Below, one piece after another: positions 4,346 to 61,622 of a stretch of 64,000 bases of DNA. Where the stretch lies: NCBI GenBank assembly GCA_000238815.2, contig AFXB01000010.1, positions 934,501-998,500 on the forward strand, read 5' to 3'. The stretch's first letter is position 1. Every line of letters begins with the position of its first letter. The notes under the pieces were generated by a model. It had not been told where the DNA came from and did not search any database. It saw only the letters and a program-made list of their open reading frames with translations. The translations under genes and the position numbers were made by a program. The stretch comes from SAR116 cluster alpha proteobacterium HIMB100 (GTDB taxonomy: Bacteria > Pseudomonadota > Alphaproteobacteria > Puniceispirillales > Puniceispirillaceae).

Positions 4346-4422
4346 TGGCGCGCTCGAGAGGATTCGAACCCCTGACCCCCAGATTCGTAGTCTGGTGCTC
4401 TATCCAGCTGAGCTACGAGCGC
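4346..4422 (-). tRNA. tRNA-Arg (anticodon ACG)
   Basis: The minus strand folds as a full cloverleaf: acceptor GCGCTCG pairs with CGAGCGC, the anticodon stem CCAGA pairs with TCTGG around the loop CTACGAA, and the T arm contains GGTTCGAATCC. Anticodon ACG, read as ICG after deamination, decodes CGN arginine codons. The terminal CCA is encoded at 4348-4346. The 77-nucleotide length is normal. tRNA genes are common integration targets, and the sulfation operon lies on its 3' side. Confidence 0.97.
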
Positions 4423-6272: not shown

Positions 6273-6407
6273 ATGAAACGCACCTATCAGCCAAGTGTAC
6301 TTGTGCGTAAGCGTCGTCACGGTTTCAGATCAAGAATGGCCACTGTTGGGGGACGCCGCGTCATCCGCGCACGCCGCGCCAAGGGCCGGGCTCGTCTGTC
6401 TGCCTAA
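6273..6407 (+). CDS. rpmH: 50S ribosomal protein L34
   Basis: A 44-residue, very basic protein beginning [18 protein letters not shown] and containing the L34 hallmark [20 protein letters not shown]34 is a late-assembled small protein of the large ribosomal subunit that lies along 23S rRNA. The ribosome-binding site AAAAGGAGCGACG is strong and a consensus promoter lies upstream. It opens the conserved rpmH-rnpA-yidD-yidC cluster, with rnpA starting 67 bases later. Confidence 0.98.
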
Positions 6408-6474
6408 ATCAGGTACTGTTCAGCTGCGCCCTTAATTGTTGATACCCCGTGCGTTGTTCCGGCAAGGCGGGATC

Positions 6475-6921
6475 ATGACAAATCACAGCACTGATATCAC
6501 TAAACCTGCTTCTGGTGATGCCGCGCAGGATATTGCGCTCAGCAGGCTGCGCCAGCGGCGTGAATTTCTGTTTGTCCAGCATAACGGGGTCAGACAGGTC
6601 ACCCCTCATTTCATTTTACAGGCCGCGGTTCCTGCGCTGCGCCCTTGTGCATCCTCATCGCCCGCTACAGCCCGCCATATCAGAACAGGTCTGACAGCTT
6701 CAAAAAAAGTCGGCAATGCGGTTATCCGGAATCGGGCAAAACGGCGTATGCGCGCGCTAGTCGGCCAGCTGGTCCAGATGCAGACCCCCTCTCAGGCTGA
6801 TTATGTTTTGGTTGCGCGGCACAGTCTGGTCAACGCAGACTGGACAGTATTATGTGCGGATTTTACCATGGCGGTTGGCAAAGTGAACCGTAAGCTTCTG
6901 GCGACAGCTAAACAGGAATGA
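6475..6921 (+). CDS. rnpA: Ribonuclease P protein component
   Basis: A 148-residue basic protein that binds the RNase P RNA and helps it cut the 5' leader from precursor tRNAs. It carries the family's central RNR signature in [18 protein letters not shown] (about residues 78-95) and an N-terminal [10 protein letters not shown] segment. The start at ATG 6475 is preferred because GGCAAGGCGGG lies just upstream. An unusual Pro/Ser-rich insert (about residues 53-64) precedes the [10 protein letters not shown] strand. The TGA overlaps the yidD ATG (ATGA). Confidence 0.95.
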
Positions 6922-7175
6922 TGATCATAACAATGCGGTCTTCTGCTCATCCCTTCAGAAAACTATTTGCACGCCTGCTGCTGGTCCCTATATATATCTA
7001 TCGATATTTTATCTCGCCATTGCTGGGGGTGAAATGCCGGTTTGCGCCCAGCTGCTCTGCTTATGCGATAGAGGCGGTTGAAAAATATGGGGCGTTGCGT
7101 GGTGGATGGTTAGCCGTTAAACGTATTACCAGATGCCATCCGTTTGGCGGGTCTGGTTATGATCCTGTCCCTTAA
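6918..7175 (+). CDS. yidD: Membrane protein insertion efficiency factor YidD
   Basis: An 85-residue protein of the YidD family (PF01809). The core [20 protein letters not shown] (about residues 27-46) is diagnostic, followed by [12 protein letters not shown] and [14 protein letters not shown]. It is thought to sit at the inner membrane through an amphipathic helix and assist YidC in membrane protein insertion. Translation is coupled to rnpA by a four-base overlap; ATGs at 6918, 6921 and 6933 are all possible starts. yidC follows after 76 bases. Confidence 0.95.
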
Positions 7176-7251
7176 CTGTGCATCAGGGGCAGGAACAGGC
7201 AGGCAAAAGTTAAGTCTGCTGTAAGCATGTGAACATTGGGAAAAGCGAAAA

Positions 7252-9000
7252 ATGGCACCTGAAACACGAAATCTTATCGCTGCTATGTCTCTTTCACTGG
7301 CGATTCTTATTGGCTGGCAGCTTTATGTTGTCGAGCCGGAGATGCAGGCTGACAGGGCCGCCTTTGAAGCCCAGCAAACCCAGCAAGCCCAGACAAATTC
7401 CGCTGGCCAGCGTCCGCAGGCAGACGTTACGGCGGGTCAGACCACCGCTGCGCCAGTGGCCCAGGATACAGGCATACGGATCCAGATTGATGCGCCGCAA
7501 CTCAGCGGCTCATTCTCAACGATGGGCGGACGTATTGATGATGTGATTCTGAACGGTTATTTCGAAACCCAACAGGATGATGCCAGCCTGATTCACCTCT
7601 TTAAGCGGTTTGATTCGGATACGCCCTATTTCGCCGAATTCGGCTGGGTTGCAAGCGGCACAGACTCGCTTGCTTTGCCTGATGAACAAACCGTCTGGCA
7701 GGCTGACCGGCAAACCCTGACCCCTGACGCGCCTGTGACACTAAGCTATGATAATGGTGAAGGACTTGTCTTCACCCGCACACTTGCCATCAATGAAGAT
7801 TATCTGATTACCGTCACAGACAGCGTGGCCTCCAGCCGCTCAGAACCGGTGACTCTAAGCCCGTACAGCCTGTTGCGCCGCACCGATACACCAGACACAC
7901 TTGGTCTGTATATTCTGCATGAAGGCCCGCTTGGCGTATTTGATGAAACCCTGAGCGAAATGGATTATGATGATCTGCGGGATGCGGGCCGCAAGGGGCT
8001 GACATTTTCACCTGAACAGGCAGGCGGATGGATTGGGTTCACCGATAAATACTGGCTGGCCTCATTAATGCCTGTACAATCTGAAAGCGCATTTTATTCA
8101 ATGCGCTCCTTTTCATCTGCGACCCCAAAGGGCCCTGTAGATATTTATCAGACAGACATGCTGGGCGAAGCTTTACGGCTTGATCCCGGCCAGCAAATCA
8201 CCTGGCAGACCTATCTGTTTTCAGGCGCTAAAAAAGTCACCTCACTTGACCGCTATGCTGAAGAGCTGAATATTGCCAATTTTGACCTGGCGATTGATTT
8301 TGGCTGGTTTTACTTCCTGACCAAGCCCTTCTTCTATGCCATTTCCTGGTTGTTTGGTGTGTTTGGGAATTTTGGTCTGGCGATTATCGGCTTTACCATT
8401 ATTGTGCGGTTGTTATTATTTCCGCTGGCAAACAAATCTTACAAATCAATGGCGAAAATGCGTCATCTCGCGCCGAAAATCCAGAAAATGCGTGCCGATT
8501 ATGGTGATGACAAGCAACGTCTGAATAAAGAAATGATGGAGCTGTATAAGCGGGAAAAGGTTAATCCGGCTGCGGGCTGTCTGCCGATCTTGCTGCAAAT
8601 TCCGGTATTTTTTGCGCTGTATAAAGTTCTGTACGTATCCATTGAAATGCGGCATGCCCCGTTCTTTGGCTGGATTCAGGATTTGTCCGCGATTGACCCG
8701 ACCTCTATTTTCAATCTGTTCGGGCTGTTGCCTTACTCGGTTGATTTCATGCCGCAATTTTTGTCGATCGGCATCTGGCCGATTTTGATGGGGATTTCAA
8801 TGGCGGTCCAGATGCGCCTGAACCCGCCCCCACCTGACCCGATTCAGGCAAAAATTTTCCAGTGGATGCCTGTCTTCTTCACCTTTCTTCTTGCCGGTTT
8901 TCCGGCGGGTCTTGTGATTTATTGGACATGGAACAACATCCTGTCTGTTGCCCAGCAATGGTGGATTACAAGAAGCATAGAGAAACAGGCCAAAGCCTGA
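7252..9000 (+). CDS. yidC: Membrane protein insertase YidC
   Basis: A 582-residue inner-membrane insertase that works alone or with SecYEG. An N-terminal membrane helix (about residues 8-25) is followed by a Gln/Ala-rich linker and a large periplasmic beta domain (about 80-330). The conserved insertase core begins near residue 345, with GFTIIVRLLLFPLANKSYKS containing the key Arg of the hydrophilic groove, then the coiled-coil hairpin and NPAAGCLPILLQIPVFFALY. It ends with a short basic tail. Length and domain order are those of Gram-negative YidC. The start ATG has GGGAAAAGCG upstream. Confidence 0.97.
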   Translation: MAPETRNLIAAMSLSLAILIGWQLYVVEPEMQADRAAFEAQQTQQAQTNSAGQRPQADVTAGQTTAAPVAQDTGIRIQIDAPQLSGSFSTMGGRIDDVILNGYFETQQDDASLIHLFKRFDSDTPYFAEFGWVASGTDSLALPDEQTVWQADRQTLTPDAPVTLSYDNGEGLVFTRTLAINEDYLITVTDSVASSRSEPVTLSPYSLLRRTDTPDTLGLYILHEGPLGVFDETLSEMDYDDLRDAGRKGLTFSPEQAGGWIGFTDKYWLASLMPVQSESAFYSMRSFSSATPKGPVDIYQTDMLGEALRLDPGQQITWQTYLFSGAKKVTSLDRYAEELNIANFDLAIDFGWFYFLTKPFFYAISWLFGVFGNFGLAIIGFTIIVRLLLFPLANKSYKSMAKMRHLAPKIQKMRADYGDDKQRLNKEMMELYKREKVNPAAGCLPILLQIPVFFALYKVLYVSIEMRHAPFFGWIQDLSAIDPTSIFNLFGLLPYSVDFMPQFLSIGIWPILMGISMAVQMRLNPPPPDPIQAKIFQWMPVFFTFLLAGFPAGLVIYWTWNNILSVAQQWWITRSIEKQAKA

Positions 9001-9014
9001 GGCCGGGGCCAGTC

Positions 9015-9680
9015 ATGACAGCAGAGCCGTTCCAGTTTGATGGTCAGGAAATAGAAGCTGGGCGGCTTTTGTTTGCCGGGCAATGCGACTTTATCGCAGC
9101 GGCCCAGAACCTGCCTGCTCTGCCGCCGATCAGCTTGCCGGAAATCGCCTTTGCGGGCCGCTCAAATGTGGGAAAATCATCACTTGTTAACGCGCTGACT
9201 GGCCGCACCACTCTGGCCAGAACCTCGCAGACGCCCGGACGCACCAGACAGCTGGTCTTCTTTTCTCTGGCCAACCGGCTTCAGCTGGTTGACCTGCCAG
9301 GCTATGGTTATGCCAAAGCAGCGAAAACTGATATCAAGGCCTGGACCAAGCTGACCCGTAAATTTCTGGTTGGCCGGCAAAGTCTGCAGCGTATGCTGCT
9401 GCTGATAGACAGCCGCCGCGGTATCGGCCCGGCAGATAAAGAGATGATGAAGCTGATGGATGAATCAGCGGTATCCTGGGCTGTTGTGCTGACCAAGACA
9501 GACAAGCTGAAACCCACACAGGCCCAACAAATATACGATAAGACCCAACAGGAAATCAGCCGGCATGTGGCGGCTTTTCCGCATGTCTGGACCACCTCGT
9601 CACAAACAGGGGCAGGAATTGCTGAGCTGCGTGCCCATCTGGCCAGCCTCAGCCTGCCGCCATCTGACCGGTCAGGCTGA
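9015..9680 (+). CDS. engB: Ribosome biogenesis GTP-binding protein EngB/YsxC
   Basis: A 221-residue essential GTPase that helps assemble the 50S subunit. GTPase motifs are in order: G1 GRSNVGKSS (about residues 48-56), G2 around TSQTPGRTRQ, G3 DLPGYG, G4 TKTDK and G5 TSSQTGAG. The ATG at 9015 is 14 bases after the yidC stop and gives the standard family length; frames opening further upstream would run inside yidC. Adjacent to yidC as in many alphaproteobacteria. Confidence 0.95.
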   Translation: MTAEPFQFDGQEIEAGRLLFAGQCDFIAAAQNLPALPPISLPEIAFAGRSNVGKSSLVNALTGRTTLARTSQTPGRTRQLVFFSLANRLQLVDLPGYGYAKAAKTDIKAWTKLTRKFLVGRQSLQRMLLLIDSRRGIGPADKEMMKLMDESAVSWAVVLTKTDKLKPTQAQQIYDKTQQEISRHVAAFPHVWTTSSQTGAGIAELRAHLASLSLPPSDRSG

Positions 9681-9767
9681 CACGCAAACGCGCGTCTGGC
9701 ATCAGATTTGGTCTCTGGTATTTGCCTGCAGAGTTGCCTATAGTGAGGCGCGGCAGCACAACTGTTT

Positions 9768-10703
9768 ATGCGGACAACCACAAAGGATGACAAGACGGTG
9801 GCAGAACAAGCATCGGCAACACCAGAAGACTGGCTCCAGAAAGCAGGGATTTTAATTGAAGCTCTGCCGTATATGCGACGCTATGCGAATAAACCTGTGG
9901 TGGTGAAATTCGGCGGTCACGCGATGGGCGAACATGAATATGTGGCCAGCTTTGCCGCTGATATGACCTTGTTACGCCAGGTCGGGGCCCAGCCGATTAT
10001 TGTGCATGGCGGCGGCCCGCAAATTGGCGATATGCTGAATCGTCTGCAGATTGAATCAAATTTTGTAAATGGGCTGCGGGTAACAGATGAAGCAACAATT
10101 TCTGTTGTTGAAATGGTTCTGGCTGGCGGCATCAACAAAGCGCTGGTGGCAGCTATACATGCCGCAGGCGGGCGGGCCGTCGGCCTGTCTGGCAAAGATG
10201 GCCAGCTGATCACAGCCTCGAAACTGTCTGATGTCTCTGCCCAGTCAGACAGTCAGATTGAACAGGTTGATTTGGGGTTTGTCGGGCGGCCGGAAACCGT
10301 TGATCCGTCTGTCTTGCACGCGCTGTTGGGAGTCGGGATGATTCCGGTTGTTGCGCCTGTCGGGCTGGGTCTTGACGGCCAGACCTATAATATCAATGCA
10401 GATACCGCCGCTGGCGCCGTGGCCAGCGCGATGGCGGCAACCCGGCTGTTAATGCTGACCGATGTTGCAGGTGTGAAGGATAAACAAGGCAATCTGATCA
10501 GCCATTTGACAGTATCATCAGCCCGCCAGTTGATAACAGACGGGACCGTACAGGGCGGCATGATCCCGAAGGTTGAAACCTGTATCGATGCTGTTGAACA
10601 AGGTGCTGAGGCTGCGGTGATTCTGGATGGCCGCGCACCGCATGCTGTGCTGGTTGAGCTTTTTACAGAGCATGGGATTGGCACGCTGATCACAACAGAC
10701 TAA
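9768..10703 (+). CDS. argB: Acetylglutamate kinase
   Basis: A 311-residue amino-acid kinase that phosphorylates N-acetylglutamate in arginine biosynthesis. It has [11 protein letters not shown] (about residues 45-55), the nucleotide/substrate loop [11 protein letters not shown], and [12 protein letters not shown] near residue 207, all typical of ArgB. A GTG at 9798, with AAAGGATG ahead of it, would give a slightly shorter protein and is a credible alternative start. argG lies 36 kb away, so arginine genes are scattered. An imperfect GC-rich hairpin follows the gene at 10726-10753 but has no T-run. Confidence 0.95.
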
Positions 10704-10847
10704 ATTAACAAGATAATGGCGCCAGGCCCGCCCCTCTGAAAAGGAGGGCAGGCATGACCGGTCCGGTTCTTCAGAAGCTGAAGAGCTGTGTTCGGGGTGA
10801 AAAGGCCAACAGGGAATTGACCGGCGAGGAGAAAGGGCAGCACAATC

Positions 10848-11546
10848 ATGGATATGTCTGCTGAGATGATGAATGGAAAGGCTGTTTCTGGCCTTGATGC
10901 GTCAGCCGTAACTGACTGGGTATTTGATCTCGACAATACGATCTATCCTGCCCGGTCCAGCCTGTTTCCGCGTGTGGCTGAACGGATGACCCAATTTATT
11001 ATGACCCATTTTGATCTGGCAGAAGATCAGGCTGCCGAGATGAAAACACGTCTGTTTCGCACCTATGGCACGACGATGCGGGGCCTGATGGTTGAACATG
11101 ATATGGCCCCGGATGATTTTTTGCATTATGTGCATGAAATCGACCTGTCTGATGTCTCTGCTGATGCTGAACTGGACGGTTTGCTGGCGCGCCTTCCCGG
11201 CCGCAAACATATCTATACAAATGGCACGGTGCGCCACGCGACCCGGATATTGGACGCTTTTGGCATCCGTGATCATTTTGATTTTATTTTTGATATTGTC
11301 GCCTCAAATCATATTCCAAAGCCTGATCCGCAACCCTATGATCTGTTTGTCAGGCAAAGCGGTATTAACCCCCAAACCTCTGTCATGATAGAGGATATGG
11401 CGCGTAATCTTGAACCAGCAGCATCTCTGGGTATGCAGACGATATGGCTGGTCAGTGACCATGACTGGGCCGCAAAAGGGGCAGACAATAATTTTGTGCA
11501 CTATATCTCAGCTGATGTAAAACAATGTCTGGCAGACTTAAGCTGA
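10848..11546 (+). CDS. HAD-family pyrimidine 5'-nucleotidase-like phosphatase
   Basis: A 232-residue haloacid dehalogenase-superfamily protein. HAD motif I is WVFDLDNTIYP (about residues 24-34, nucleophile Asp), motif II lies in IYTNGT, and motifs III/IV in KPDPQPYD and MIEDMARNLEPA. The DxDNTxY form matches the pyrimidine 5'-nucleotidase (Sdt1/YjjG-like) branch, which dephosphorylates UMP, CMP or dTMP. It lies between argB and dapD, its usual place in alphaproteobacteria. AGGAGAAAGG precedes the ATG; a second ATG lies two codons in. Confidence 0.88.
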   Translation: MDMSAEMMNGKAVSGLDASAVTDWVFDLDNTIYPARSSLFPRVAERMTQFIMTHFDLAEDQAAEMKTRLFRTYGTTMRGLMVEHDMAPDDFLHYVHEIDLSDVSADAELDGLLARLPGRKHIYTNGTVRHATRILDAFGIRDHFDFIFDIVASNHIPKPDPQPYDLFVRQSGINPQTSVMIEDMARNLEPAASLGMQTIWLVSDHDWAAKGADNNFVHYISADVKQCLADLS

Positions 11547-20515: not shown

Positions 20516-20631
20516 GGCATATAGACTACCGGGTTATTATCAGCCTGACCAGACCCGCAGGCCGTTTGTCTGAACATCAGCTCTACAGCATGCAGGCAGG
20601 GTGAAGAACGGGGCAAAACTGTCTGGTAAAT

Positions 20632-20723
20632 GAAAGGCTGGATGACCCGTCTGAAACAAGCTGTGGCTGCTTCCTTTCGGACCTGACCTGGGTCAACCTG
20701 ACCAATCGTCCACCCAACCTTCC
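20632..20723 (-). ncRNA. ffs: Signal recognition particle 4.5S RNA
   Basis: The minus strand carries the universally conserved SRP domain IV core: GGTCAGGTCCGAAAGGAAGC, with the apical loop and the symmetric internal loop that bind Ffh. The ends pair over about 14 bases (GGAAGGTTGGGTGG against the complement at 20632-20645), giving a single long hairpin of about 92 nucleotides. It lies just upstream of dnaX in the same orientation, its common place in proteobacteria. End positions come from the helix and may be off by a few bases. Confidence 0.9.
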
Positions 20724-58799: not shown

Positions 58800-59318
58800 T
58801 CAGGCCTGTGCAAATTTTGTGTGCTGACCTGCCATCCGCATGATCCCGTAAAACAGGCCGGAAAAGAACAGGGTACTGGCCAGCGTATTGCCGAAGAAAG
58901 GCAGCGCCGCAACATAACAGGCCATCATCCCTTCAGCGGTCAGCGGATAAAACCCGCTGCCCAGCCAGACACCAAAATTGGTCGTGATGAAAAACAGGGC
59001 TGATGAGGCCAGTGCCAAGCCGCCAATCCTCGGCAAAACAGCAGAAGTGCGGCGCAGGATATGGCTCATCACCACGCTGGCAGCAACCGCGCCATAGACC
59101 CACACCATAGAGCTGTGCAGACCGATAATCACATCTGCCAACACCATGGCAACAATCGGCAGGGCAATCGCACTCCACAAATCACGGGCGAAATAAGGCG
59201 CGAAAACAGCAACCGCCAATATCGGGGTAAAATTCGGTGGATGCGGGATGACCCGGCTTGCCACCAAAAAGCAAATCAAGGACAGAAATCCGCCAGCTAA
59301 TTTCTTATCGAATGTCAT
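58800..59318 (-). CDS. DUF6580 membrane protein, candidate cobalamin uptake component
   Basis: A 172-residue protein with five to six membrane helices. It opens like small S-component-type transporters: RVIPHPPNFTPILAVAVFAP (about residues 22-41), then FFITTNFGVWLGSGFYPLTA and ACYVAALPFFGNT. It lies 118 bases downstream of the riboswitch-controlled btuB on the same strand and is likely co-transcribed. DUF6580 has no proven function; a role in carrying cobalamin or a precursor across the inner membrane is an inference from context. GGAGCAAAATAAA precedes the ATG. Confidence 0.75.
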   Translation of the reverse strand: MTFDKKLAGGFLSLICFLVASRVIPHPPNFTPILAVAVFAPYFARDLWSAIALPIVAMVLADVIIGLHSSMVWVYGAVAASVVMSHILRRTSAVLPRIGGLALASSALFFITTNFGVWLGSGFYPLTAEGMMACYVAALPFFGNTLASTLFFSGLFYGIMRMAGQHTKFAQA

Positions 59319-59436
59319 TTTATTTTGCTCCTTCCCGATTTCGGTTTTTTACACCCTGCAGTCACCATAAGTGGCAATTCAGCTGGCATCAATCTAAAAT
59401 CGACCATCAACCAGCTTAATTGCGACATGACGGATC

Positions 59437-61302
59437 TTAATAGGTTACCGGAAAATTATATCGCAAAGTCAGATAAACACTACGCCCTGCTGTTGTATAT
59501 TGTCTGGTGGTTTCATATTTGGCATCAAAAATATTTTCTGCCTTGACCAGTATATCTGTCGTGTCGGTCAGATTATGCAGCATATTTGCATCAAATCTGA
59601 CATAGCTGGACATCTCGCCACCAACACCTAACCGCCGTCCGGAATAGGTTACTTTGGTTCCGAACAGGTAATCATCAACCTGTTTGGACAGGTATAGGCT
59701 GCCAAAGGATTTTGCTCGTTTTTGCAAGGATTTCGGGCCAGTGGCAGCATCTTTCAGTTTTGGCTCCTGAAACGTCATGCTCAGCGTGTAATCAACAAAA
59801 TCTGTTGTGCCGTCAATATTGATTTCTGCGCCTTTATTTTCACTTTTTCCAACATTGTAATATGTGGGGAAGCTATATTCGATTGCGTTTTTTGTGCTGG
59901 TTGAAAACAGTGTTGACCGGAATAATGTGCGGTCTGATATCACGCTTACAGATAGCTCATCTGTTGTGTGTTTTTCGGCATTCAGGCCCGGGGCAACAGA
60001 ATGCTCATAGGCATCCGGGGCGCGAAACCCTGTTGACCGGCTGATCGCCGCTTTGACTTGTTCGGTGAAACGATATCCATATCCTGCCAGTGCCGAGTTA
60101 TGCTTTACCGTCTTTTTTGCACCGGTATCATGCGCGAATTCCACATCATCTGACCGAATATTGGCTTGTAAACTATGTGGTCCTGATATCAGCTGATAAC
60201 CGGCAAACACGGCCTGGCCGTTGCGCTCAGATGGTGTGGTGTTTGACTTGTAATCAGCAGTGGCCACATCAATACCCTGCGTTATGGTGTGAAGGACATC
60301 TCCGGACTGTACACGCGAAATATTCACCAGCTTGTAAGAGGACTGGTCGCCCTTTTTCTTGGTTCCGGCTGTGCCATTGGTTAATTCATCACGCTGGTGC
60401 GTATCCTTGTTATATGTCAACTGCAGATTGATCAGCTCTTTGTCTGCATATTCATAGTGGGCTGAAAAATCGGTATTGGTTGACTCAAACTCATGCAGAT
60501 TGGTTGCTGGTGTAAAAGAATTATCATAATCACCCTTGCTGTCGGCCTGCCTGAATGAGGCGGCGACATTTGATCGTGCAGACAGCCTTTTCGCGACAGA
60601 TACCGCATAATTCTCGCGGGAAAAGCCATCTTTGTCTGGGTTTGTGGCTCCCCATGATGAAGTCGCGGTCTGTGCGTTATAACCCTCTGTGTCATAACGT
60701 GATGCGGTAAAGGTTACGTCGACATCCCCGATGCGCCGTGACAAGCCTGCATCAAATTCATCTGTGCCGTAACTTCCTGTGGTGGCAGATACATATCCTG
60801 TATCACGCATTTTACCCGCCTTTGTGATCACATTAATCACCCCGCCGATGGCCCCTTCACCATAAAGCGCGGACGCATTACCCTTCAGAACCTCTATGCT
60901 CTGAATTTCTGTCAGGGACATATCCGGCAGAATCACATTTCCATACAGGTCTGTTTGCACTTTAATGCCGTCAATCAGCAAAACATAATTCTTGCTGGCC
61001 TGGCCGCGCAGAAATACAGATAAATTTCCGCCGGGACCACCTGAACGGGTCACTTCAATCCCTGTTTTCTGGCTGATCAGCTCACCAAATGATGTGGCTG
61101 CTGACGATTCGATTTCTTGTTGTGTGATCACATCTGTGCTCAGCAGAACATCACTTAACGGGGTGTCCTGATAACTGGCGATAGACACCACCGGATTGAT
61201 GACCAGATAATTTGCGGTGCTGTTATCATCTGCAGATGCGCTGAACGCTGTGCCCAGCAAACCAGCAAGAGCAGTGGGAAAAAGGCGTGAGATAGGTGTC
61301 AT
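59437..61302 (-). CDS. btuB: TonB-dependent outer-membrane receptor, BtuB type
   Basis: A 621-residue receptor. After a signal peptide (about residues 1-24) comes a TonB-box-like stretch, a plug domain with DVLLSTDVITQQEI, VFLRGQASKNYVLLIDGI and ALYGEGAIGGVINVITK, then a beta barrel with DAKYETTRQYTTAGRSVYLT and a terminal aromatic strand (YNFPVTY). The ligand is predicted as cobalamin because a B12 riboswitch lies directly upstream. GGGGAGGACC just before ATG 61302 is the ribosome-binding site. Confidence 0.92.
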   Translation of the reverse strand: MTPISRLFPTALAGLLGTAFSASADDNSTANYLVINPVVSIASYQDTPLSDVLLSTDVITQQEIESSAATSFGELISQKTGIEVTRSGGPGGNLSVFLRGQASKNYVLLIDGIKVQTDLYGNVILPDMSLTEIQSIEVLKGNASALYGEGAIGGVINVITKAGKMRDTGYVSATTGSYGTDEFDAGLSRRIGDVDVTFTASRYDTEGYNAQTATSSWGATNPDKDGFSRENYAVSVAKRLSARSNVAASFRQADSKGDYDNSFTPATNLHEFESTNTDFSAHYEYADKELINLQLTYNKDTHQRDELTNGTAGTKKKGDQSSYKLVNISRVQSGDVLHTITQGIDVATADYKSNTTPSERNGQAVFAGYQLISGPHSLQANIRSDDVEFAHDTGAKKTVKHNSALAGYGYRFTEQVKAAISRSTGFRAPDAYEHSVAPGLNAEKHTTDELSVSVISDRTLFRSTLFSTSTKNAIEYSFPTYYNVGKSENKGAEINIDGTTDFVDYTLSMTFQEPKLKDAATGPKSLQKRAKSFGSLYLSKQVDDYLFGTKVTYSGRRLGVGGEMSSYVRFDANMLHNLTDTTDILVKAENIFDAKYETTRQYTTAGRSVYLTLRYNFPVTY

Positions 61303-61435
61303 TTTGGTCCTCCCCGGAACATAAGTCATGAAGTGTCGGGGAGTAAAAAAAACGCTCCACGACGGTGAGTGTGCGTCACCATCACGGAAAATGCCTGTCC
61401 GTTGTCTTGGTCATACCTCGTGACCCGACTAGGTG

Positions 61436-61592
61436 CTGGTCTGGCAGGTCTCCTGACTTCTAGCTCTGCGTGGTGTTATGCCTTCCCGTCATGGTGCTGA
61501 CAGTGGCGCAATATAACAACACTCGCTAGTCACAGTTGCGAGGACAGTCGCAGATTAAAGGTGGTATGCCCGTTCCTGCGTTCCCTTTTCAT
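61436..61592 (-). promoter_or_regulatory. Cobalamin riboswitch
   Basis: The minus strand holds the B12 box GCCACTGTCAGC (61510-61499 region), an upstream AAAGGGAACGCAGG segment and the 3' AGTCAGGAGACCTGCCAGAC segment, the three best conserved parts of the adenosylcobalamin riboswitch, in order and at normal distance. It lies 134 bases ahead of btuB and should turn it off when B12 is plentiful. Ends are approximate. Confidence 0.93.
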
Positions 61593-61593
61593 C

Positions 61594-61622
61594 ATGTTTC
61601 CATGAACCAGACTATTGTCAAG
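61594..61622 (-). promoter_or_regulatory. Probable promoter of the riboswitch-btuB transcript
   Basis: A perfect TTGACA (61622-61617 on the minus strand) is followed by CATGAT or a similar weak -10 near 61597-61592. Transcription would begin just ahead of the riboswitch. The -10 is poor, so confidence is modest. Confidence 0.4.

Follow-up and report, generated by a model that had tools for sequence, protein, structure and literature searches.

DUF6580, a candidate solitary cobalamin importer encoded behind a riboswitch-controlled btuB gene in a SAR116 alphaproteobacterium

Many bacteria use vitamin B12 without being able to synthesize it, and in a considerable share of them, to our knowledge, no inner-membrane importer has been named. 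The window analysed here, a stretch of 64,000 nucleotides from the genome of SAR116 cluster alphaproteobacterium HIMB100, raises this problem in compact form. Within it, a cobalamin riboswitch precedes btuB, which encodes an outer-membrane receptor, and the next gene on the minus strand encodes a small membrane protein of the family DUF6580 (PF20221). We ask how cobalamin crosses the inner membrane of such a bacterium, and whether DUF6580 could be the carrier.

The elements of the locus are collected in Table 1. An earlier note, made from the letters of this DNA alone, had described a clear cobalamin riboswitch ahead of btuB, followed not by btuFCD but by a small membrane protein of five or six helices. 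Profile searches bear out both statements, with a full-length aptamer match and a DUF6580 score well above the curated cut-off of the family; btuFCD is absent from the window locus. A whole-genome search returned a single RF00174 riboswitch, the one upstream of btuB. The terminator-like hairpin lies between the aptamer and the btuB start and probably serves the riboswitch as a transcriptional expression platform. As listed, the btuB reading frame spans 59437–61329(-), and its true start is likely an internal methionine at 61302, since a Shine–Dalgarno sequence, GGGGAGGACC, precedes that codon. TIGR01779 ranked first among the NCBIfam families for the product at 292 bits, below its equivalog cut-off of 599.7, and a Pfam Plug domain is present; we apply the name BtuB to this sub-cut-off receptor because of the riboswitch, the rank of TIGR01779 and the operon context. 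The two genes are separated by 118 nt, and DUF6580 has a good Shine–Dalgarno sequence (GGAAGGAG). A scan of this gap on the same strand returned no terminator-like or promoter-like site, so a single btuB–DUF6580 transcript is likely. The Rfam scan of the window also returned a small SRP RNA at 20629–20723(-) (43.4 bits) and a tRNA gene at 4349–4422(-).

Table 1 Features of the riboswitch–btuB–DUF6580 locus, in coordinates of the window.
Feature	Position	Strand	Evidence
Cobalamin riboswitch aptamer, RF00174	61426-61626	(-)	cmscan 103.7 bits (gathering threshold 31.5), E 7e-25; model 1-189 of 189
Terminator-like hairpin	61389-61355	(-)	Terminator scan: 14 pairs, 8-T tail CGTTTTTTTT
btuB, TonB-dependent cobalamin outer-membrane receptor (likely start)	59437-61302	(-)	TIGR01779, Plug domain, sequence
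DUF6580 protein, 172 aa, six membrane helices, S-component-like fold	58800-59318	(-)	PF20221 148.8 bits (curated cut-off 27); AlphaFold2

The host genome (2.46 Mb, alphaproteobacterial, SAR116-type order; completeness 100% by tool estimate) encodes methylmalonyl-CoA mutase and a two-domain B12-binding (corrinoid methyltransfer) protein adjoining a pterin-binding protein. Searches of this genome detected neither the ring-synthesis marker CbiC/CobH nor a BtuC-type (FecCD) permease nor CbiQ/EcfT (the ECF T-component). Because B12-dependent proteins are present and none of these three markers was detected, the host most likely needs external B12, and most likely has no recognised inner-membrane importer for it other than the DUF6580 candidate. 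The earlier note had proposed that DUF6580 is a carrier working without a dedicated ABC system, and the results for FecCD and CbiQ/EcfT agree with that proposal.

Comparison of 61 genomes of the order indicates what stands behind btuB in relatives. DUF6580 was found in 15 of them, beside btuB in every case, and the riboswitch is visible at 14 of these loci; a contig end cuts the remaining one, in G007. Four genomes (G000, G001, G007 and G021) have the gene order btuB–DUF6580–SDR–FBA. Two members of the same family (G009 and G016) have btuB–btuF–btuC–btuD–SDR–FBA behind the same riboswitch, so that the slot between btuB and the SDR and aldolase genes holds a FecCD permease gene flanked by genes for a periplasmic binding protein and an ABC ATPase, that is, btuFCD. 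At 20 riboswitch–btuB loci the sequence extends far enough to show the next genes; among these, DUF6580 follows at 14 and btuF(CD) at six (one of the six ends after btuF), with no locus carrying both and none carrying neither; three further riboswitch–btuB loci end at contig ends and stand outside this count. CbiC was detected in none of the 15 DUF6580 genomes versus 29 of the 46 others in the order (Fisher p = 9e-6, a guide rather than an exact probability since the genomes are related).

The arrangement varies. In three SAR116 genomes (L019, L021 and L022) the riboswitch and btuB are followed by a small TonB_C-domain protein, with DUF6580 convergent to both, and DUF6580 is likewise convergent to btuB at three loci from Pelagibacteraceae/Alphaproteobacteria (L117, L118 and L120); the riboswitch transcript therefore does not cover DUF6580 as a gene at these loci. 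Order genomes without btuB place the riboswitch ahead of HupE–CobW–CobN, CbtA or ZnuABC-like genes. In one genome of the same genus (G004, locus L077) the riboswitch is followed, with no btuB, by a CbiM-like protein at 1594–2349 (PF01891, 49 bits), which belongs to an S-component-type family, immediately precedes the same aldolase gene and represents a third occupant of the riboswitch slot. Five CbiC-bearing relatives (G012 at locus L088, G054, G002, G025 and G030) carry the riboswitch before a ZnuABC-like ABC transporter with an ABC-3 permease and a ZnuA binding protein, a candidate cobalt importer.

Outside the order, three confident DUF6580 genes turned up among 398 evenly sampled Pseudomonadota genomes, and in each case btuB immediately precedes the gene and is itself preceded by a B12 riboswitch. 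In G419 (L237:4503–4595) the riboswitch before btuB–DUF6580 is of the AdoCbl-II class (RF01689) and not RF00174; the DUF6580 gene of locus L235 was identified by direct translation and Pfam. A scan of the collection detected relatives in SAR86, Pelagibacteraceae, Marinimicrobia, Ignavibacteria, Bacteroidota, Balneolota, Planctomycetes and Patescibacteria, with an RF00174 match in 38 of 50 such genomes. Plasmid records contained no relative. DUF6580 was present in 82 of 198 sampled Bacteroidota genomes.

Across phyla, a B12 gene lies within five genes of DUF6580 at 40 of 74 loci. When BtuB, PduO, NrdJ-like, MetH, CobS, CobC-like, DUF71, DUF5074 and DUF4430 are counted as B12-linked families (neighbour representatives being identified by Pfam), they make up 59 of the 402 genes at distances of one to three from DUF6580 versus 2 of the 265 at distances of six or more, with a p of 6e-12 that is optimistic because the families were picked after the neighbours were known. 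Most of these families belong to B12 metabolism, and we take DUF5074 and DUF4430 to be linked to it as well. Neighbours in other phyla include pduO, nrdJ-like, cobS, metH and DUF71 genes, and in Patescibacteria the order nrdJ-like, DUF4430, DUF6580, pduO recurs. The nrdJ-like neighbour is predicted to encode NrdJ (class II) because of its barrel and TSCPD domains and the neighbouring PduO. At five loci, mostly from Patescibacteria (L139, L144, L156, L160 and L186), a small DUF4430 protein (PF14478) precedes DUF6580, with nrdJ-like and pduO genes at several; this protein could be a surface B12-binding partner of DUF6580. One Ignavibacteriae locus (L214, about 6400–11100) reads riboswitch–btuB–DUF71–btuF–DUF6580, with btuC and btuD not seen there, and the binding protein BtuF is apparently paired with DUF6580.

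The 30 best-scoring Bacteroidota loci often show YceI-like genes, and not B12 genes, next to DUF6580, and the B12 linkage of the family is therefore not universal. At four loci of the Bacteroidota-phylum sample (L240, L241, L247 and L251) DUF6580 belongs to a conserved cluster with a YceI-like protein, a 3-methyladenine-glycosylase-like protein and a DUF4956-like membrane protein, and no B12 genes were found near it; none were found near it at Balneolota-type and some other loci either. The link between DUF6580 and B12 control across genomes that the earlier note had named as a check was thus recovered for all 15 DUF6580 genomes of the order and all three confident Pseudomonadota genes outside it, and in more partial form across the phyla.

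Some of these neighbours bear on the choice of substrate. A number of Bacteroidota DUF6580 genes follow the salvage genes cobS and a CobC-like phosphatase, DUF71, which has been linked to B12 salvage (PMC3541065), occurs near DUF6580 at three loci, and cobinamide is accepted by CbrT and BtuM as well (PMC5997447, PMC6072759). This would fit a protein whose substrate is not cobalamin but cobalt or a precursor or fragment of the corrinoid (cobinamide, alpha-ribazole or a lower ligand). We consider this unlikely. DUF6580 exactly replaces btuFCD, and it pairs with BtuB, PduO, NrdJ-like and MetH genes. Cobalt import was rejected on the ground that the DUF6580 genomes of the order have no corrin-synthesis marker and would have little use for the metal; in other genomes, HupE, CbtA or ZnuABC-like genes fill the riboswitch slot. 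Cobalamin itself stays the predicted substrate.

Evidence on the proposed transport protein comes from its predicted structure. An AlphaFold2 model built from 69 sequences, which replaced a 12-sequence model with weaker structural matches, has a mean pLDDT of 92.8, a pTM of 0.87 and six membrane helices. Searched with Foldseek against 350,542 PDB chains, it matched best to BtuM with cyanocobalamin (8c7p; E 0.019, probability 1.00, TM 0.69/0.67), followed by the S-components 4huq chain S, ThiT, FolT and PanT. These top five matches have probabilities of 0.69–1.00 and weak E values (0.02–0.7), and together they point to the six-helix S-component fold. A phmmer search of the PDB with the single window protein gave no match, and a DUF6580 profile run against PDB sequences gave, at E ≤ 10, a single one, chain A of 6fnp (E 0.029), which is ECF-CbrT, a B12-specific ECF transporter (PMC5997447). 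Pfam models of S-components matched a few members of the family (PF12822 in 2 of 69, best E 1.1e-4; PF07155 in 4 of 69, best E 0.002). With Foldseek E values of 0.02 or weaker and an E of 0.029 for CbrT, homology to any single S-component is suggestive, not proven. The S-component-like look that had been remarked on from the sequence nevertheless finds support in the fold search, with suggestive matches in the profile searches, and the upper of the two helix counts is the one seen in the model.

Over 87 DUF6580 sequences, Arg22, Asn29, Phe109, Asn114, Tyr124 and Phe141 are invariant, and conservation is 99% for each of Pro25, His26 and Trp118, 98% for Asp62, 82% for Cys134 and 80% for His68 (with 11% Tyr in that column). 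Judged from the order of the helices, loop 3 (residues 66–70, GLHSS) contains His68 but no conserved Cys, and loop 1 contains His26 and Asn29; Cys134 belongs to a later helix (128–137). We hypothesize that His26 and Asn29 of loop 1 and His68 of loop 3 may participate in corrinoid binding.

The S-component fold could also mean that DUF6580 works with an unrecognised ABC energizing module and not alone, and solitary CbrT indeed gives no growth without its ECF module (PMC5997447). This reading appears quite improbable. CbiQ/EcfT is absent from 60 of 62 DUF6580 genomes, the host included, which disfavours a hidden ECF partner; no ATPase gene was found to recur beside DUF6580; and BtuM and, in rare organisms, BioY work without a module (PMC6072759). 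The same paper describes E. coli as having no ECF module. Full-scoring FecCD permeases are present in 8 of the 62 genomes, a result that counts against DUF6580 as the importer. Weak FecCD matches in many genomes (about 18–41 bits) were considered as BtuC and set aside; they are partial, fall in frames of about 270–300 aa and were read as ABC-3/Znu-type permeases.

The host genome also has a 490-bit match to SbmA_BacA, and a mycobacterial BacA transports cobalamin (PMC10960864). Cobalamin might thus enter by an SbmA/BacA-type protein, with DUF6580 as an accessory that, for example, modifies the corrinoid or holds it in the membrane. We give this very little credence. SbmA_BacA occurs in 58 of the 61 order genomes, with or without CbiC or btuFCD, and therefore does not track the trait; E. 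coli, a control of the search, has SbmA_BacA too, yet 1 nM cobalamin does not sustain growth of its btuF btuC metE mutant (PMC5997447). That DUF6580 serves some unrelated purpose in the membrane and stands behind btuB by chance, as its YceI-like and DNA-glycosylase-like neighbours in some Bacteroidota might suggest, can be given almost no weight: the linkage recurs across several phyla, in differing surroundings, with diverged btuB genes and under two classes of riboswitch, and both the neighbour distance profile and the exchange of btuFCD for DUF6580 contradict a chance placement.

We propose, at a probability of roughly 0.85, that DUF6580 is a solitary, S-component-like inner-membrane cobalamin importer forming a B12-uptake operon with BtuB, a prediction drawn from sequence comparison and a structural model. 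On this reading, a marine alphaproteobacterium auxotrophic for B12 would use the unit as its operon for cobalamin uptake. Under cobalamin shortage, the riboswitch would let transcription past the terminator, and btuB and DUF6580 would be made together. BtuB, with TonB, would bring cobalamin across the outer membrane into the periplasm, where DUF6580 alone would bind it and carry it across the inner membrane with neither BtuFCD nor an ECF module, in the way proposed for BtuM. Uptake driven by trapping in the cell, through adenosylation or enzyme binding, might apply. The candidate carrier of the earlier note has in this way gained in strength from evidence beyond the window, and DUF6580 would very probably supply the inner-membrane step of B12 import that is otherwise unaccounted for in many bacteria with neither B12 synthesis nor the usual import machine.

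More tentatively, DUF6580 might be a major and hitherto overlooked family of cobalamin importers that act alone, spread over Bacteroidota, marine SAR116, SAR11-type bacteria, SAR86, Marinimicrobia, Ignavibacteria and Patescibacteria, with His and not Cys binding the corrinoid cobalt and with Patescibacteria taking B12 from a surface DUF4430 protein; this full extension we regard as somewhat doubtful. Assigning a predicted function in B12 import to a widespread family would close part of the importer gap, and B12 dependence could be predicted better for communities of the ocean, groundwater and the gut.

No paper naming DUF6580 or PF20221 was found in the literature library searched, and BtuN received only an incidental mention there. 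Among known systems, BtuFCD occupies the slot of DUF6580 behind riboswitch–btuB in relatives, but it is an unrelated three-gene ABC system of the FecCD type, whereas DUF6580 is a single small protein. ThiT (3rlb), FolT (4z7f), RibU (5kc0) and PanT (6zg3) share the fold, yet their TM-scores fall below that of BtuM and they serve other vitamins. ECF transporters employ an EcfT (CbiQ) partner, which was not detected in the host genome. CbrT, the S-component of Lactobacillus delbrueckii ECF-CbrT (6fnp, PMC5997447), is the sole PDB sequence match of the DUF6580 profile, and its cluster nrdJ–cbrS–cbrT–pduO resembles the Patescibacteria arrangement; however, CbrT requires an ECF module, and DUF6580 genomes mostly have no EcfT.

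The closest likeness is to BtuM of Thiobacillus denitrificans (8c7p; Rempel et al. 2018, PMC6072759), which is also a protein of about 20 kDa with six helices and the S-component fold, linked to BtuB and found in auxotrophic Gram-negative bacteria that have no ECF module. In BtuM, an invariant Cys80 in loop 3 binds cobalt (PMC6072759), whereas DUF6580 has His68 and no conserved Cys in the loop that corresponds by helix order rather than by superposition. The DUF6580 profile did not return the BtuM sequence from the PDB even at E ≤ 10, and DUF6580, unlike BtuM, also occurs in Bacteroidota and Patescibacteria. By two tests, the loop-3 Cys and the sequence match, DUF6580 is thus not a BtuM, yet it probably works like BtuM, and it would add a second natural case of how an S-component-like protein may move a very large molecule without an ATPase.
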